A stretch of DNA of 64,000 bases from Emcibacter sp. (GTDB taxonomy: Bacteria; Pseudomonadota; Alphaproteobacteria; Sphingomonadales; Emcibacteraceae). Every line of letters starts with the position of its first letter. The first letter of the stretch is position 1. Below, in pieces: positions 11,596-31,797 of the stretch. The position numbers were made by a program, and so were the translations under genes. The stretch lies in assembly GCA_021774785.1 (NCBI GenBank), contig JAJFIQ010000019.1:930001-994000 (forward strand), given 5' to 3'. The notes below the pieces were generated by a model, which saw only the letters and a list, made by a program, of their open reading frames with translations, was not told the origin of the DNA and did not search any database.

Positions 11596-12864
11596 TTAAG
11601 CCCCCTTCTTTGCATCCAGTACGGCCTGAGCAATACTGGTTGGGACTGGTTTGGTTGTTTCAAAGCGACTGACCATAGGAACAATCACAATGAAGTATGC
11701 GAAATAAAAGACAGATGAAATACGACCAAGGGTCAGGGCATCAATGCCGCCCCCCATATTAATCATAATCTCATCGGGTAATTTCGTTCCCAGATAACCC
11801 AAAAAGATAGTATTTGCCAAAAACAGCCAGAAGAAAAAGGCTGTAGTCGGGCGAAATTTTGCCGACCTGATTTTTGATCCGTCCAACCACGGCAACACGA
11901 AGAAAATCAAGATAGACCCAAACATGGCAACAACACCAAGAAGCTTGTCGGGTACCGCCTTCAGAATTGTATAGAACGGCAGATAATACCATTCCGGCAC
12001 AATATGGGACGGCGTTACCATGGGGTTAGCCTCAATATAGTTATCGGGGTGACCCATTATATTTGGCAGATAAAAAATGAATACCGCAAATATCACGATG
12101 AAAAATGACAATCCAAAAGCATCCTTGGCTACATAATAAGGATGGAAAGGAATCTTGTCGCCCGGACCTTTGGCATCAATACCTAGCGGATTGTTTGATC
12201 CCGGAAGATGCAAAGCCCAGATATGCAGGATAACGACCCCAACGATTACAAACGGCAGCAGATAATGCAAACTGAAAAAGCGTTGCAATGTTGGATTATC
12301 TACGGAGAAACCACCCCATAACAGATGCAGGATGCTTTCCCCCATACCGTCATAAAAGTCAAAAGCCCCGAACAGGTTGGTAATAACCGTCGCACCCCAG
12401 AAGCTCATCTGTCCCCAAGGAAGCACATAGCCCATGAAGCCCGTAGCCATCATCAACAGATAGATGACCAAGCCTAAGAACCACAACACTTCACGTGGTG
12501 ATTTGTACGATCCAAAGTACATACCCCGCAAAATATGAATATATACAATAACAAAGAACATGGATGCACCATTGGAATGGGTATAACGCAATAGCCAGCC
12601 ATAATTCACATCTCGCATGATATGTTCAACAGCGCGGAAAGCCATATCCACATGTGGGGTATAATGCATAACCAATATGATGCCGGTAATGATCTGCACT
12701 ACCAGCATGAAACCGGCCAGTGAGCCAAAGTTCCACCAGTAATTAAGATTACGGGGTGCCTTATAACCGGCACCCAGTGTTCCATGAATAAGTCCCAGAA
12801 TCGGCAGTTGATCCTCAAACCATTTTACAGCCTTATTTTTAGGCTCGTAACCAGATGATCCCAT
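11596..12864 (-). CDS. petB: cytochrome b of the bc1 complex
   Basis: 422 residues with eight predicted membrane helices. The haem-ligand histidine pairs are in the second and fourth helices ([18 protein letters not shown] and [20 protein letters not shown]). The quinol-oxidation site motif PEWY is present ([13 protein letters not shown]). A length over 400 with fused N- and C-terminal parts is the proteobacterial and mitochondrial form, not the split b6/subunit IV form. It is the middle gene of petABC. Confidence 0.97.
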
Positions 12865-19811: not shown

Positions 19812-21113
19812 CTACCAGTCAACCTGAAAACGTAAACCATAAGTATTCACGTCGGTAACATCTTCCGGGCTTCCTTCAATATCAGAATGGGAATAGTTCG
19901 CCATGAAGCGTGTGTAATCATTCAAGTGCCAGTTCACACCCAGAACAATGGTATCCTGCTCACCACCCATAATCAGGGCGTCTTTATCATGCAGATCGAT
20001 GGTATCATACCGCACGGCAACCTGCCACGCCCCCATACCGCCGTCAAAAACCGGGTTTTTCACTTTCGCACGATCCATGGCACCCTTTTTATAGCCACGT
20101 GATTCACCCGTGATGAAATAACTCAGATCAACATAGCCACCCTTGAAGGAAGCATCTTCTACCGAAGCATCTAGCGTATCGGCTTGAACCCAGGCATATT
20201 CAGCCTGTGCGGAAAATGGCCCCATTATACCAGCTAGCTCAAGACCAAAGAAAGTATCTTTGTCGGCGGCAAAGCTGCCCGTATTCACATAACGGTTTGC
20301 GGCAAGATGAGCATGGGGACGTTGACGATATCGAATTATATTATCTCCATTGTCATTTTCACGACTAAACCACGATACACCAACATGGACACGGGCATCA
20401 CCCATTTTGGGCCCATAGGTAACGCGGGCACCATATGTACGGCCTTCCTCAGCAACGTCTTTACCATTACTACCCTGAAAAATTCCGGCTTTGAAAGTGA
20501 TATCATTTTTTGCATACCCAAGTGCAATGCCGATGTTGCGGCTCAAACCGAAGGCATCTGTAAAGGCTGCCCTCTCCATGAAAGTAATATAGCGGGAAGA
20601 TGTTTGTTCTTCTAATGAGGCCGGAACCTTGAACTGTCCAAATATTAGGGAGATAGGTTTTATTTTCCATTGCAAATAAGCATCTTTCACAGTGACTTCA
20701 TTGCCAGCAAAATCGGCTTCAAATTTATATTTAATGTCCTTGAACAAAATACCTTCGACACCGAGACGGGCGGTACGGAATTCTGTAGCATCAACTTTTT
20801 CACCGGAAATGACTACGCCATTATTTTTAACAGAAACATTTCCGTAGTCTGTGAATATACGACCCCGTATTTTCATTTTAAATTTACCGTCCGCGCTGGA
20901 AAGCTCGGGAGCCCCTTTCCATTTCACTTTTAAATCGGGTATTTTCTTCGCAGCGGCGGTTTGTTTTTTCTCAAGCTCATCAATTTTTTTGCTTAAGAGA
21001 TTGATCTGTTCTTTTAATTCCTGAATCGTTTGTGCTGATGCAACCGGTGTGAATGCCACACCACATAGTGCTGTTGCAGCCAGCAACCCAAGAAATGGTT
21101 TCCTCATCATCAT
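19812..21113 (-). CDS. phosphate-selective porin, OprP/OprO family
   Basis: 433 residues: a signal peptide (cut near VASAQ), a short coiled coil for trimerisation (IQELKEQINLLSKKIDELEKK, about 28-49) and a beta barrel ending in Trp (FQVDW), as outer-membrane barrels do. The barrel resembles OprP/OprO, with a lysine-rich, strand-alternating N-half (KFKMKIRGRIFTDYG). It imports phosphate, polyphosphate or other anions; the selectivity cannot be read. The start is the first of three ATGs, after AAAGGAAATATC. It is divergent from the cytochrome-porin operon. A possible PhoB site lies upstream. Confidence 0.85.
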   Translation of the reverse strand: MMMRKPFLGLLAATALCGVAFTPVASAQTIQELKEQINLLSKKIDELEKKQTAAAKKIPDLKVKWKGAPELSSADGKFKMKIRGRIFTDYGNVSVKNNGVVISGEKVDATEFRTARLGVEGILFKDIKYKFEADFAGNEVTVKDAYLQWKIKPISLIFGQFKVPASLEEQTSSRYITFMERAAFTDAFGLSRNIGIALGYAKNDITFKAGIFQGSNGKDVAEEGRTYGARVTYGPKMGDARVHVGVSWFSRENDNGDNIIRYRQRPHAHLAANRYVNTGSFAADKDTFFGLELAGIMGPFSAQAEYAWVQADTLDASVEDASFKGGYVDLSYFITGESRGYKKGAMDRAKVKNPVFDGGMGAWQVAVRYDTIDLHDKDALIMGGEQDTIVLGVNWHLNDYTRFMANYSHSDIEGSPEDVTDVNTYGLRFQVDW

Positions 21114-21324: not shown

Positions 21325-21366
21325 TTGACCCACGTCAAAGTTGTATGAACTCTTTAGCATTATAAT
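21325..21366 (+). promoter_or_regulatory. FNR/CRP-type class II promoter of the cytochrome-porin operon
   Basis: TTGACCCACGTCAA at 21325-21338 is a perfect 5-4-5 dyad of the FNR/Anr/FixK/Dnr type. TATAAT at 21361-21366 predicts a start near 21373, which places the centre of the dyad at -41.5, the class II activator position. The leader would be about 93 nt long. The geometry is seen directly; which family member binds (FNR, FixK, Dnr) is not known. Confidence 0.8.
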
Positions 21367-21465: not shown

Positions 21466-22599
21466 ATGAGAATAAAATACTGGATTACATTAATGGCAGC
21501 CTTTGGATTCCTGCTGGTTAGCAGCAATGCAAATGCCATCCCCGCATTGGCCACGAAGACTGACAAGAATTGTTCTTATTGTCACAATGCCTGGCCTCAA
21601 CTCAACGATAAAGGGCGTGCTTATAAGGAAGCCGGGTATCGGCTACCTGCTGAAATAGGCAAAAAAGGTGAAAGCTTCCTTGAATCAGGAGAATTCCCCT
21701 TCTCAGCTGTATTGGTTGCACGCCCTTATGACAAAAAAGGCAGTGGCACTAAGAAAATTCGTGCTCTACACGAAGTAGAAGTCATCGCCGCCATATCTTT
21801 TGGCGAACATCTGTCAGGTTTCTTTGAACTAGAAGCCGAGGATGAAACAGACTTCAACATTGAAGTACCACAAGCTTCCATCACTTATACCGTCAACCCT
21901 GAGTTCAATATTCAGGTAAGCTGGGGCGATATGTTCTTTGCTGATCCCTATGGCTTACTTGCTGATCATTTCCGCTTAACTCGTGGACATGTCGGCGTTA
22001 TTGATCAGTCATTTGGTGGGGCAGATGGAAAATTAAGGTCTGCTCGCCAGAATATTACTGCCTATGGCCGTGTTGCTGAACGTGTATTCTATATGGTAGG
22101 CTACAGTGGCGATGCTGGTGATACAGAAGGTGTTGACGGTCAGAATATACTGGGACGTATCGCAGTTGATATTACCCCCAATATTATGGTCGGTGGTTTC
22201 TGGCTTGAAGGTGAGAATGCGGCCAGCAACCGTGATTATCGTCGTGCCGGTGTTGACTTTCTTGCTGATATAAAGAATTTCCGCATAGCGGGTGCTTATG
22301 TCAATACCAAGGATGACACACCTGACCTTCTGGGCGAAGTAGATAACGATGCTTGGTCTGTTCAAGCCAACTACTTCTTCAAATCTGAAAGCGGTGCACC
22401 AACTTTTGTACCAACTGTACGCTTTGATCGTTACCAGAAGAACGATGGTATGGACCAATATTCTGAATTCACCTTAAACCTGGGTTATTATGCAACACAA
22501 TATGCAAAAATATACCTTGAATATTGGAACCGGTTTGACGTTCCGGCAGACCAAGAAGAGGATACTCGCATTACTCTACAAGCGGTATTCTCCTTCTAA
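21466..22599 (+). CDS. outer-membrane monohaem cytochrome-porin fusion (Cyc2-like architecture)
   Basis: 377 residues. A signal peptide ends near NANA (residue 24). Directly after it lies a haem c site, CSYCH (about 37-41), inside IPALATKTDKNCSYCHNAWP followed by QLNDKGRAYKEAGY. This is the N-terminal layout of Cyc2 (A-x-P-x-x-A-x-x-T, CxxCH, xxFPxLxxxGRxFKxxGY). The remaining 310 residues alternate polar and hydrophobic strands, rich in Tyr, Phe and Trp, and end in Phe (LQAVFSF), the outer-membrane barrel signature. Cyc2 is the Fe(II) oxidase of iron-oxidising bacteria; relatives of unknown role exist widely. Here the neighbours are a cytochrome c, an FCSD-like flavoprotein and a NapC-like protein. 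The ATG follows AAAGAGGAGACG. Confidence 0.75.
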   Translation: MRIKYWITLMAAFGFLLVSSNANAIPALATKTDKNCSYCHNAWPQLNDKGRAYKEAGYRLPAEIGKKGESFLESGEFPFSAVLVARPYDKKGSGTKKIRALHEVEVIAAISFGEHLSGFFELEAEDETDFNIEVPQASITYTVNPEFNIQVSWGDMFFADPYGLLADHFRLTRGHVGVIDQSFGGADGKLRSARQNITAYGRVAERVFYMVGYSGDAGDTEGVDGQNILGRIAVDITPNIMVGGFWLEGENAASNRDYRRAGVDFLADIKNFRIAGAYVNTKDDTPDLLGEVDNDAWSVQANYFFKSESGAPTFVPTVRFDRYQKNDGMDQYSEFTLNLGYYATQYAKIYLEYWNRFDVPADQEEDTRITLQAVFSF

Positions 22600-22617
22600 T
22601 CCTTCATTGGATAATCA

Positions 22618-22654
22618 GAAAGGGCCGACTAAAATTTCTTAAATCGGCCCTTTC
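22618..22654 (+). terminator. strong 11-bp hairpin between the cytochrome-porin and cytochrome c genes
   Basis: GAAAGGGCCGA (22618-22628) pairs perfectly with TCGGCCCTTTC (22644-22654) around a 15-nt loop. Only three T follow, so full termination is doubtful. It may partly stop or protect the mRNA, giving more of the first gene than of the three genes behind it. Confidence 0.6.
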
Positions 22655-22706
22655 GTCTGATCCTTTAGAGGTTAAAATGTTCTTTTAATACACATTGGGA
22701 GAAAAT

Positions 22707-23018
22707 ATGATGAATCGAATAGCAATAAGTATACTGCCCCTGCTAACAATGCTGATCTGGTCAACAAATAGTATGGCACAAGGCCCAAGCAGGGCGGAAT
22801 TCATGGCTAGTAGCTGTCTTGTCTGTCACGGGCAGGAAGCCAAAGGCGCCCTCAAAATCCCCCCTTTAAACGATCTGAAGGTCTCCGATATTAAAGAATC
22901 CATGATTGGTTTTAAGACCGGAGAAGAGCGTTCCACCATTATGGGTATAATAGCCAAAGATTATAGCAAAGAGGACATTATTCTTCTGGCTGAATATATT
23001 GCCGCATTACCGGATTGA
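22707..23018 (+). CDS. small periplasmic monohaem cytochrome c (FccA-like)
   Basis: About 103 residues: a signal peptide (to about residue 24, SMAQ), haem c site CLVCH, and a probable Met ligand in STIMGIIAKDYS. The C-terminal ILLAEYIAALPD helix is typical of class I cytochromes c and of the cytochrome subunit of flavocytochrome c. Because an FCSD-type flavoprotein gene follows after 10 bp, it is most likely its electron acceptor. The ATG at 22707 (or the next one) follows GGGAGA; a TTG at 22695 lies on the ribosome binding site and is not the start. Confidence 0.88.
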   Translation: MMNRIAISILPLLTMLIWSTNSMAQGPSRAEFMASSCLVCHGQEAKGALKIPPLNDLKVSDIKESMIGFKTGEERSTIMGIIAKDYSKEDIILLAEYIAALPD

Positions 23019-23028
23019 GGAAAAAATC

Positions 23029-24309
23029 ATGACCATAGAAAGAAGACAATTCATTCAGACACTTGGAGCTACTGGGCTTCTTGCATCTATGAGCAGTACA
23101 TTGGGGTTTAGTTTATCACATGCCGCATCCGGTGCCCGTGTCATCGTAATCGGCGGTGGCTTTGGCGGCACTATCTGCGCCAAATATATCCGAAAATTCA
23201 GCCCCTCTACGGCTGTAACCTTGATTGAGCCAAAAAAAAATTATTTCACCTGTCCAGGAAGCAATAGTGTTATCGCTAACCTGCGTCCTATGACACATAT
23301 TAGCCATAACTATAATAAACTCGGTGCTGAATATGGCATCTCTGTTCTGCATGACAAGGTAAGCTCAATTGATAGCACCACCAAAATAGTTACTCTTAAA
23401 GGGGGAGGAATTCATAACTATGATTTCCTTGTCCTCTCTCCGGGCATAGATTTCAAATCAGATACTATTGAAGGCTATAATCCCAATGACGAAACATTTC
23501 CTCATGCATGGAAGGCAGGAGAACAAACACGCTTGCTCCGAGATCAAATCCTATCCATGGACGATGGCGGCACAGTTATCATTGCGCCACCAACCAGGCC
23601 TTTTCGCGCCCCACCAGCGCCTTACGAGCGGGCCAGCCTGATCGCCCATTATCTATCTGAGAATAAGCCGCGTTCCAAAATAATCATTCTCGATGGCAAT
23701 AATGATTTTTCCAAACAGGCATTGTTCATACAAGCCTGGAAGAAACTATACCCCGGCATGATCGATTGGGTCGGCATCAAGGATCACGGGGGTTTTTCTG
23801 CCGTTCACACACCCTACCGGGAAATAGTAACTAATTCTGGAAATCACTTTAAAGGACAGGTGGTCAATATCATTCCACCACAAGAAGCAGGCCTAATAGC
23901 CATACAAAGTGGTCTAGCGGATGATTCAGGTTGGTGTCCTGTTAAGCCTGATACATTTGAATCTACTATACAAAAAAATATTCATGTTATCGGCGATAGC
24001 TGTCAGGCCGGAGATATGCCCAAGACAGGTCATGCCGCCAATGCCGAAGGTAAAATTTGTGCGGCTGCTATCGTAGCCAGCATCACCGGAAGACCGATAA
24101 TGGATATTACCTATAACATGAGCATCTATAGCCTTATCAGCCCTAAATACGGCATATCCATGTCCGAGAACTATCAAATGATAGACAGCAGGATAACAAA
24201 GGTGAGTAGTGCTAGCAGTAGTCTTAAGGCCAAAAAGAAAACCCGGCGCAAGGAAGCCCAATATGCCGCTGGCTGGTATAAATCCATCACCAGCGACATG
24301 TTTAAATGA
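23029..24309 (+). CDS. FAD-dependent sulfide dehydrogenase flavoprotein (FCSD/FccB family)
   Basis: 426 residues. A twin-arginine signal (IERRQFIQTLGATGLLASM) exports the folded flavoprotein. The FAD dinucleotide motif is VIVIGGGFGGTICAKYI. The two redox-active cysteines of FccB are in place: YFTCPGSNSVI (about 85-95) and GWCPVKPDTFES (about 302-313), followed by HVIGDSCQAGDMPKTGHAAN. FCSD oxidises sulfide and passes electrons to a cytochrome c, here probably the product of the gene before it. A basic tail (KAKKKTRRKE) precedes the end. The start at 23029 follows GAGG. Confidence 0.88.
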   Translation: MTIERRQFIQTLGATGLLASMSSTLGFSLSHAASGARVIVIGGGFGGTICAKYIRKFSPSTAVTLIEPKKNYFTCPGSNSVIANLRPMTHISHNYNKLGAEYGISVLHDKVSSIDSTTKIVTLKGGGIHNYDFLVLSPGIDFKSDTIEGYNPNDETFPHAWKAGEQTRLLRDQILSMDDGGTVIIAPPTRPFRAPPAPYERASLIAHYLSENKPRSKIIILDGNNDFSKQALFIQAWKKLYPGMIDWVGIKDHGGFSAVHTPYREIVTNSGNHFKGQVVNIIPPQEAGLIAIQSGLADDSGWCPVKPDTFESTIQKNIHVIGDSCQAGDMPKTGHAANAEGKICAAAIVASITGRPIMDITYNMSIYSLISPKYGISMSENYQMIDSRITKVSSASSSLKAKKKTRRKEAQYAAGWYKSITSDMFK

Positions 24310-24338
24310 CCTGATTAATAAAAAGGAAGGGTACGAAA

Positions 24339-24917
24339 ATGATATTATCTGGAAAAATGAAAGCTTACTGGAGAGCTTTCTGGCAACCCAGCACACGTTT
24401 CTCCTTTGGCCTGATAGCCATCACCTTTATGGCAGCAGGTATAATTTTCTGGGGCGGCTTCAACTGGGCTATGGAAATGACCAATACGGAAACATTCTGT
24501 GTTACCTGTCATGAGATGCGAGATAACCCCTTCCCGGAATATAAGGACACCATACATTATACCAACCGAACCGGCGTTCGAGCCACCTGCCCCGACTGTC
24601 ATGTTCCCAAACCCTGGCATTTAAAAGTCCTACGCAAAATAAAAGCTACCGGAGAACTTTACGGGAAAATGACTGGGAAAATTGACACCAAGGAAAAATT
24701 TCAAGCCCATAAACTTGAGATGGCTCAGAATGTATGGCGGGCCATGGAAGCATCGGATTCAAGGGAGTGCCGTAACTGCCATGCCTTTGATTTTATGGAT
24801 ACAGAAGAACAAACAGGCCGCGCCGCACGGAAACACGAAAACCCAGAGGGAAAAACCTGTATCACATGTCACAAAGGCATCGCCCATGAACTACCTGAAG
24901 ATTACGAGCAAGAATAG
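24339..24917 (+). CDS. NapC/NirT-family tetrahaem cytochrome c
   Basis: 192 residues with one N-terminal membrane anchor (about 20-42) and four haem c sites: CVTCH, CPDCH, CRNCH and CITCH. This is the NapC/NirT/NrfH/CymA/TorC pattern, membrane-bound quinol dehydrogenases that hand electrons to periplasmic partners. No nitrate, nitrite or TMAO reductase gene is near; the neighbours are an FCSD flavoprotein and an outer-membrane cytochrome-porin, so the partner is probably one of these. The ATG follows AAAAGGAAGGG. Its stop lies 7 bp from that of the converging DUF934 gene. Confidence 0.92.
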   Translation: MILSGKMKAYWRAFWQPSTRFSFGLIAITFMAAGIIFWGGFNWAMEMTNTETFCVTCHEMRDNPFPEYKDTIHYTNRTGVRATCPDCHVPKPWHLKVLRKIKATGELYGKMTGKIDTKEKFQAHKLEMAQNVWRAMEASDSRECRNCHAFDFMDTEEQTGRAARKHENPEGKTCITCHKGIAHELPEDYEQE

Positions 24918-30978: not shown

Positions 30979-31797
30979 ATGGCTTTGAAGTCAGCCGTAA
31001 TTAATGTCATGGAAATGGCCGCACAAAAAGCGGGCCGTAAACTGAACCGCGATTTTGGTGAAGTAGAACATCTTCAGGTATCCCGCAAGGGCCCTGCAGA
31101 TTTCGTATCATCCGCCGACCTGAAAGCGGAAAAAATCATCAAGGAAGAACTCTTCAAAGCCAGACCTAATATTGCTTTCCTTCTTGAGGAAGAAGGTGAA
31201 ATTAATTTAGGGGATGGCAGTGGCCGCTGGATCGTTGACCCGTTAGACGGCACCACAAACTTCCTACACGGCATTCCCCATTTTTGCATTTCCATTGCCC
31301 TTGAACAGAATGGCGAGATCACCGCCGGACTCATATACAACCCCATAACGGATGAAACCTATTGGGCGGAAAAAGGCCGTGGCGCTTATCTTAATGACAT
31401 GAAAATAAGAGTCTCTGCCCGGCGGGATATGAAATACAGCCTTCTCGCCACCGGCATCCCCTTTCACGGTACAAAGGGACATAAAACTTTCATTCATAGC
31501 CTGGATACCATTATGGGCGAAGTCTCCGGTGTGCGCCGGTTTGGTTCCACTGCTCTTGATCTTGCCTATGTGGCTGCAGGAAAATATGAAGGATTTTGGG
31601 AAGCCCATCTTAACAAGTGGGATATTGCCGCAGGTATTCTGCTCGTCCGTGAAGCTGGTGGTAGTGTGACCACATTTCAGGGAAAGAACAAAGCCTATGA
31701 AACAGGAGAAATCCTCGCCACCAACAGCATCATTCATGGCCCCCTGACCCGTCTACTGGCGACAGCACGTAAAGCAGCTAAAGAGGCTGAAAAATAA
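30979..31797 (+). CDS. suhB: inositol monophosphatase family protein (SuhB-like)
   Basis: 272 residues. The metal-binding motifs are LLEEEGE (about 67), WIVDPLDGTTNFLHG (about 81-95) and the C-terminal WDIAAGILLVREAGG. They coordinate Mg2+ for hydrolysis of inositol-1-phosphate or similar sugar phosphates. In E. coli SuhB also acts in rRNA antitermination; whether this one does is unknown. The ATG follows AAAGGAATTATCC. It is likely co-transcribed with efp. Confidence 0.92.
   Translation: MALKSAVINVMEMAAQKAGRKLNRDFGEVEHLQVSRKGPADFVSSADLKAEKIIKEELFKARPNIAFLLEEEGEINLGDGSGRWIVDPLDGTTNFLHGIPHFCISIALEQNGEITAGLIYNPITDETYWAEKGRGAYLNDMKIRVSARRDMKYSLLATGIPFHGTKGHKTFIHSLDTIMGEVSGVRRFGSTALDLAYVAAGKYEGFWEAHLNKWDIAAGILLVREAGGSVTTFQGKNKAYETGEILATNSIIHGPLTRLLATARKAAKEAEK

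Follow-up and report, generated by a model that had tools for sequence, protein, structure and literature searches.

Four adjoining genes in a stretch of DNA from Emcibacter sp. (GenBank assembly GCA_021774785.1, contig JAJFIQ010000019.1; 64,000 nucleotides, referred to here as the window) encode a cytochrome-porin fusion, an FccA-like cytochrome c, an FccB-like flavoprotein and a NapC-type cytochrome, respectively. Distantly related marine bacteria have kept these genes side by side, and the four seem to form a trans-envelope electron wire. A conserved electron-transfer path between the quinone pool and the cell surface is supported by synteny in two classes, by the haem domain and predicted barrel of the first protein and by the homology of the other three to FccA, FccB and NapC. 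The flavoprotein lacks one redox-active cysteine of the flavocytochrome c sulfide dehydrogenases (FCSDs) and probably does something other than ordinary (canonical) sulfide oxidation. The direction of flow is not settled, with inward favoured over outward; that the module would pass electrons from an extracellular iron or sulfur donor to the quinone pool is, in our judgement, an evenly balanced proposition.

Gene cluster and conservation of its order

The cluster occupies positions 21466–24917 of the window, with the four consecutive plus-strand genes in the order given in a preliminary description of this DNA:

21466..22599, plus strand: gene 1, cytochrome-porin fusion, 377 aa; signal peptide, one haem c motif and a predicted 16-strand barrel
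22707..23018, plus strand: gene 2, FccA-like monohaem cytochrome c, 103 aa; haem motif CLVCH and presumed Met-ligand motif TIMG
23029..24309, plus strand: gene 3, FccB-like flavin adenine dinucleotide (FAD) protein, 426 aa; twin-arginine translocation (Tat) signal, Ala194 (codon 23608-23610), Cys75 and Cys303 kept
24339..24917, plus strand: gene 4, tetrahaem NapC/NirT-type membrane-anchored cytochrome c, 192 aa

The start of gene 2 was taken as ATG 22707, the list of open reading frames (ORFs) beginning at TTG 22695, and successive genes are separated by 107, 10 and 29 bp. The three cytochromes contain one, one and four CxxCH motifs. Comparison of the window with locus L012, from an Emcibacter metagenome-assembled genome (MAG), gives ratios of nonsynonymous to synonymous substitution (dN/dS) of 0.05–0.10 for all four genes, indicating purifying selection. 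A decaying FccB was ruled out, as the frames are open and dN/dS is 0.10 against L012 and 0.04 against L013 (silent sites saturated).

Relatives were collected in a pattern-based scan of 84,980 species genomes, which returned 11 loci (L012–L022), a lower bound; with the window, 12 loci were compared. All four genes are found in the same order in the window, L012, L013, L016, L017, L018, L019, L020 and L022, which is nine of the ten loci of sufficient length (three alphaproteobacterial, the window counted, and six gammaproteobacterial). The tenth, L021, contains genes 1–3 with no NapC downstream of FccB. The sequences of L014 and L015 stop just past the porin or inside gene 2, and these loci are outside the ten-locus count. 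A lack of neighbourhood in relatives would, according to the preliminary description, have spoken against the set, but the genes are neighbours there; because this order is conserved, the cluster goes beyond a chance neighbourhood, which was ruled out.

Outside the module, the alpha- and gammaproteobacterial copies have one generic gene family in common (window 30979–31797 and L021), at non-matching places. L012, from the Emcibacter sp. OFTM146 MAG, is much closer to the window, with 92% porin identity and thirteen flanking gene families in common. Within the order to which the window belongs the porin was found in three of 60 genomes, namely its own, G785 and G754, the last with a copy (L053 / L063) 43% identical to the window porin; two other genomes of its own genus gave no porin match. 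Among 385 genomes of the class and 398 of the phylum a full-length porin match was obtained in its own genome only, the others being confined to the haem domain and, at most, the first ~160 positions. None of the 48 genomes of the class of G419 matched the porin at E 1e-30; this is a small class and hence a poor sampling centre. Plasmid carriage of the window porin was rejected, as tblastn gave no PLSDB match.

Cytochrome-porin

The motif CSYCH occurs once in gene 1, at residues 36–40 (21571–21585), and is present in all 12 aligned copies; the signal peptide was judged by eye. No Pfam or NCBIfam family scored over its cut-off. AlphaFold2 models of the window protein (mean pLDDT, the predicted local confidence, 59) and of its L022 relative (mean pLDDT 54) each contain 16 strands, at low to modest confidence. 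The window model aligns to 16-strand porins at Z ~20–21, including OprO (4rjw) and OprP (2o4v) (Z 21); a structure search listing porins leaves other families possible, and other 16-strand porins score like OprO and OprP. The same two structures are named for Cyc2 by Keffer et al. (PMC8406198; papers given by PMC number are cited from excerpts of their text).

The haem domain is homologous to that of Cyc2-like proteins (hhalign 98–99%). The barrel alone is less alike, at 72% against one Cyc2-like set and 14% and 4% against two others, the reversed controls giving 0.5% and 0.3%. A PXL motif four residues past the CXXCH reads PQL in all 12 copies. The signature AXPXFAR[Q/K][T/Y] upstream of CXXCH, taken from PMC8406198, is complete in none of the 12 copies, which match five or six of its seven specified positions (AIPALATKT in the window). 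A tree of 71 cytochrome-porins unites the porins of the 12 loci with L053 in one clade, which has a Shimodaira–Hasegawa-like approximate likelihood ratio test (SH-aLRT) value of 100, the 12 alone receiving 92; Cyc2-like sequences served for comparison, the tree holds no named Cyc2 sequence and the program warns that long branches meet.

The earlier account of a signal-peptide protein with CSYCH just before a beta barrel agrees with both models as regards the barrel, and the protein combines a Cyc2-type haem domain with a predicted 16-strand barrel rather than belonging to a family without haem or barrel. The term 'Cyc2-like' used there stands as regards the homologous haem domain, PXL and the barrel, and fails as regards the published signature. 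Because the signature is incomplete in all 12 copies and these form a clade of their own in a tree of unnamed Cyc2-like sequences, we do not file gene 1 as Cyc2, although it may well work like one.

The G754 genome, from the same order, carries the lone porin relative L053 and DsrA. A second cytochrome-porin type, with FARKYGM.CNSCH and variants, was seen at L067–L070 in family f188 (perhaps Mariprofundaceae). These porins sit 3' of two ORFs resembling a sensor and a response regulator, with no FccB match, and flanks of up to 1.5 kb around the Cyc2-like relatives of this family gave no match to FccA, FccB or NapC.

FccA-like cytochrome and altered FccB

The best PDB match of gene 2 is the cytochrome chain 5n1t_B (3.3e-11), and its single CLVCH confirms the earlier assignment as a monohaem cytochrome c. 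Gene 3 has an RR signal and matches FCSD_central (9.6e-43) and FCSD-flav_bind (2.8e-15), both over cut-offs; its closest solved relative is the FccB of PDB entry 5n1t (7e-127). In Allochromatium vinosum FccB the FAD is attached to Cys42, and Cys161 and Cys337 form the redox disulfide (PMC3504083). Window residues Cys75 and Cys303 correspond to Cys42 and Cys337, respectively, and the Cys161 site is Ala194, within PFRAPPAPYER as against PFRCPPGPYER in PDB entries 5n1t, 3vrd and 1fcd. The Tat-exported FAD protein of the preliminary description is thus retained with its RR/Tat signal, FCSD domains, FAD cysteine and Cys337 site; that it has both FccB cysteines does not hold at the Cys161 site.

The substitution is a property of the whole group. 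All ten porin-linked FccBs have alanine at the Cys161 site, and all ten keep the FAD-linkage cysteine and the equivalent of Cys337. For comparison, the window FccB was searched against 398 Pseudomonadota genomes at E 1e-30, giving 104 matches in 95 genomes; sampling was even across groups, which gives small classes more than their share. All but one of the matches could be read at the Cys161 column, where 102 have cysteine and one, the window itself, has alanine. Together with a separate FccB from G790, cysteine is found in 103 of 103 readable other FccBs. G790 contains both types, an Ala-type FccB beside the porin and a Cys-type FccB elsewhere in the genome. The other positions vary more: the Cys337 column (n = 98) has 81 Cys, 11 Ala, five Val and one Thr, and the FAD-linkage cysteine is absent in 16 of 98. 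FCSDs that keep the Cys161 site and have lost Cys337 account for 17 of the 98 (such as L119, L135–L138, L155 and L160–L162). The Ala-type sequences fall into one clade (SH-aLRT 99) in a tree of 113 FccBs, and a single change accounts for them.

Canonical sulfide oxidation by the module FccB is unlikely because it lacks one redox cysteine and because sulfide:quinone oxidoreductase (SQR) activity is abolished when either cysteine is replaced by serine (Griesbeck 2002, as cited in PMC3504083). The general statement that FCSDs oxidise sulfide, made in the earlier account, should therefore not be carried over to this protein. A redox role is likely kept, since the FAD cysteine is retained in all ten module copies though lost from some survey sequences.

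It might be argued that the protein is an ordinary sulfide dehydrogenase which tolerates Ala194, the porin and NapC being loosely associated neighbours. Its closeness to the 5n1t FccB and the existence of single-cysteine FCSD homologues (the 17 of 98 without cysteine at the 337 position) are consistent with this explanation, but the invariance of the Cys161 site in the 103 other FccBs, the synteny across two classes and the separate Cys-type FccB of G790, apart from its porin-linked Ala-type, make it very improbable.

NapC-type cytochrome and its neighbours

Gene 4 matches Cytochrom_NNT (2.2e-70) and contains four CxxCH motifs, in agreement with its description as a tetrahaem NapC/NirT protein; against NCBIfam napC_nirT it scores 276.5 bits, under the curated cut-off of 310.6. 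Flanks of ~1.5–3 kb, shorter at contig ends, were read around the survey FCSDs. A NapC-type gene lies near 24 of 97 ordinary (Cys-type) FCSDs, and a cytochrome-porin near none of the 97 (tblastn, E 1e-5). Eight of the NapC–FCSD loci were opened. SoxY and SoxZ, identified by Pfam, follow NapC in three of them (L101, L103 and L114), which are FccA–FccB–NapC–SoxY–SoxZ sets; SoxZ precedes NapC in one (L131, which has SoxZ only). These FccAB–NapC–SoxYZ sets of other Pseudomonadota resemble the module in the proximity of FccA, FccB and a tetrahaem NapC, and differ from it in an FccA with two CxxCH motifs where called, a Cys-type FccB, the presence of SoxY and SoxZ (three loci) and the lack of a cytochrome-porin match.

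The resemblance raises the possibility of a module for sulfur compounds, in which the barrel would admit polysulfide or sulfur chains, the FccAB-like pair would oxidise persulfide or polysulfide by single-cysteine chemistry and NapC would take the electrons. The porin haem would then be an oxidant for sulfur inside the barrel and not a surface wire. The sulfur-oxidising gammaproteobacterial hosts and the retention of Cys303 and the FAD cysteine also agree with this explanation. However, the two classes have no additional gene conserved alongside the module, hence no SoxY or SoxZ, and the Cyc2-type haem domain has so far been tied to Fe(II) or electrodes (PMC8406198, PMC5371394). We consider it improbable, though less so than an ordinary dehydrogenase.

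A protein of ~600 aa with five CxxCH, in which a NapC domain is joined to another long domain, was seen at L187 (own genome, C4), L186 (a congener) and L184 (G790).

Upstream boxes and the intergenic hairpin

Two candidate regulatory features were located at the 5' part of the cluster:

21325..21338, plus strand: FNR-like box TTGACCCACGTCAA, 141 bp before gene 1
22618..22654, plus strand: strong RNA hairpin between genes 1 and 2, terminator- or attenuator-like (z score -4.85 for 22600-22706)

FNR-type sites are associated with low oxygen. The pattern TTGA-N6-TCAA was searched for within 400 bp upstream of gene 1 and was found in five of the 12 loci (the window, L012, L013, L014 with two and L015 with two) and in none of the other seven (L016–L022). 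Together, the 11 loci L012–L022 (142,126 bases) contain 12 matches, six of which are the upstream ones, and the 64,000 bases of the window contain two. The window box alone is not significant (shuffle p 0.06), and a two-pattern regular expression, a weak test, found no Crp/Fnr gene in the window. The earlier label 'FNR-linked' is therefore partly upheld, by the box before gene 1 and those in four relatives, and is weakened by the lack of significance of the single box and its absence from seven loci; with boxes in five of 12 loci only, the FNR box was rejected as a general feature of the module.

A hairpin between genes 1 and 2 is present in all nine intergenic regions folded (the window, L012, L015–L017 and L019–L022), its sequence differing between lineages. 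The z scores are -2.9 to -7.9 in eight regions; L015 (z -0.4) has a GC stem followed by a run of U. The window hairpin was not on the terminator list of a consensus scan. The recurrence of the hairpin in 9/9 regions suggests that genes 1 and 2 need not be one even transcript; the porin gene may have a transcript of its own or be expressed in excess.

A Porin_O_P gene (19812-21113, minus strand) is divergent from gene 1 and has a common upstream region with it. Such a gene also adjoins the cluster in L012, with no match beside the remaining copies.

Host genomes and direction of electron flow

Most carriers are MAGs, which makes absences weak evidence. SoxB scored over the cut-off in all eight gammaproteobacterial carriers checked (of nine, the L018 genome being left out), as against none of 14 control genomes; RuBisCO was found in six and DsrA in five of the eight. 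Among the three alphaproteobacterial carriers (G000, G785 and G792), ccoN is over the cut-off in G000 and G792.

The preliminary description proposed a complete path from the quinone pool to the outer surface, running either outward or inward. The conserved set, the haem domain of the barrel and the FccA, FccB and NapC homologues speak for such a path, and an FccB without Cys161, a porin without the Cyc2 signature and the hairpin after gene 1 count against it as first drawn. On the inward scheme that we favour, the barrel haem would take electrons from an external donor or one within the outer membrane, such as Fe(II), iron sulfide or solid or polymeric sulfur, and would pass them to the FccA-like haem. 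From there they could reach NapC and the quinone pool, or else an oxidase by way of soluble cytochrome c. The FccB flavin would be retained as a redox partner of FccA; with no Cys161–Cys337 disulfide possible, FccB would either relay electrons or oxidise the donor by single-cysteine chemistry, and not by the canonical sulfide-to-polysulfide reaction. Low oxygen would be an operating condition only in the loci with FNR boxes. We infer the location of the components, the exchange between partners and the direction from sequences and models.

Inward flow is favoured for three reasons. Those hosts in which known lithotrophy genes occur are sulfur oxidisers. The FccAB–NapC neighbours elsewhere probably serve donor oxidation, in which electrons are expected to enter. 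Finally, A. vinosum raises fccA (~175-fold) and fccB (~75-fold) on pyrite relative to dissolved sulfide, while its fccAB mutants still oxidise sulfide (PMC11267869). The same paper reports Alvin_1095 up to 41-fold higher on pyrite, its text tying this gene to a four-haem cytochrome and its table giving epoxyqueuosine reductase.

Several observations weigh against this interpretation. None of the alphaproteobacterial carriers gave a match to SoxB, RuBisCO or DsrA above the cut-off. The pLDDT is below 50 over the N-terminal haem part of the window model, so the haem position is predicted only. The change to alanine is a single evolutionary event, and its perfect tie to the porin is thus one observation. 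No FccA, FccB or NapC match was obtained in the 10 kb read around the G754 porin at L053, and L021 has no adjoining NapC. Of the 24 NapC-linked ordinary FCSDs, 20 are from one small Pseudomonadota class and represent few independent cases. In the NapC tree the module sequences of the two classes fall apart, and the idea that NapC was inherited as one part of the module was set aside on this ground, although a forced common clade is not rejected (approximately unbiased test, AU p 0.06). The potentials are a further difficulty. Ubiquinone lies at about +100 mV. The Cyc2 of PV-1 has been placed at +208 mV (PMC8406198); if the module haem had a similar potential, transfer to ubiquinone would be uphill, which fits outward flow or the cytochrome c route better.

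An outward path under low oxygen would take electrons from quinol to NapC, the FccA-like cytochrome and the porin haem in turn, and from there to an external acceptor such as Mn(IV), Fe(III) complexes or humics. The Cyc2 potential would make the quinol-to-porin step downhill, NapC/CymA cytochromes usually oxidise quinol (CymA in PMC10654088), FNR-type boxes lie upstream in the five loci listed above and the alphaproteobacterial carriers lack over-cut-off lithotrophy matches, as already noted. Such a path is nevertheless unlikely in our view, as SoxB and RuBisCO are frequent in the gammaproteobacterial carriers (8/8 and 6/8), FccAB homologues act in donor oxidation, seven of the 12 loci have no FNR box and the flavoprotein would be left without a role.

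Comparison with known systems and significance

The module porin shares with the iron oxidase Cyc2 a signal peptide, one CXXCH, PXL, a predicted OprO/OprP-like barrel of 16 strands and a homologous haem domain. It differs in its separate clade, its five or six of seven signature positions, the modest similarity of its barrel and its position beside FccAB and NapC. With the flavocytochrome c sulfide dehydrogenase FccAB the module has in common the FCSD Pfam domains, the Tat signal, the FAD-linkage cysteine and an adjacent class I cytochrome, whose short chain resembles that of 5n1t (102 aa), the closest solved relative. Unlike FccAB, it has alanine for Cys161 in every copy and an adjoining porin, and its cytochrome is monohaem whereas that of A. 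vinosum is dihaem. As in CymA/MtoAB and PioAB/MtrCAB (PMC8406198, PMC10654088), an inner-membrane NapC-family cytochrome is combined with an outer-membrane haem barrel; in contrast to these systems there is no neighbouring decahaem cytochrome, the barrel carries one haem by fusion and a flavoprotein is present. A decahaem conduit of the MtrCAB/PioAB type was rejected, as no further CxxCH occurs among the ORFs called at 12001–36000, the rest of the genome not having been searched.

No description of the four-gene set was found in the open-access literature, among the matches listed, most subscription papers being outside this search; this agrees with the preliminary description, to whose author no described system with these four together was known. 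In the excerpts of PMC9769843, PMC13322032, PMC5371394, PMC7329443 and PMC10305379, Cyc2, Fcc or porin-cytochrome genes appear separately, or other conduits are treated. The part families are known, and what is new is the combination, not found described, with a lineage-specific change in a key enzyme.

Both gene families serve as functional markers, fccB for the oxidation of sulfide and homologues of cyc2 for that of iron (e.g. PMC9769843). Because relatives of both form one conserved unit here, with an FccB that lacks a residue otherwise invariant in the survey, annotation by such markers could assign sulfide or iron oxidation to the carrier genomes in error, or on mistaken grounds. The alanine residue and the gene order together offer a simple way to recognise the group. 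The module also offers a natural test of whether flavocytochrome c functions in the oxidation of minerals instead of sulfide, a question that work on A. vinosum and pyrite had already brought up (PMC11267869). As a tentative and on balance doubtful proposal, a former sulfide dehydrogenase without its disulfide chemistry may have become a flavin relay that links the quinone pool to a Cyc2-type haem at the surface, serving the oxidation of solid iron–sulfur minerals, which in the heterotrophic alphaproteobacteria would be an accessory energy source.

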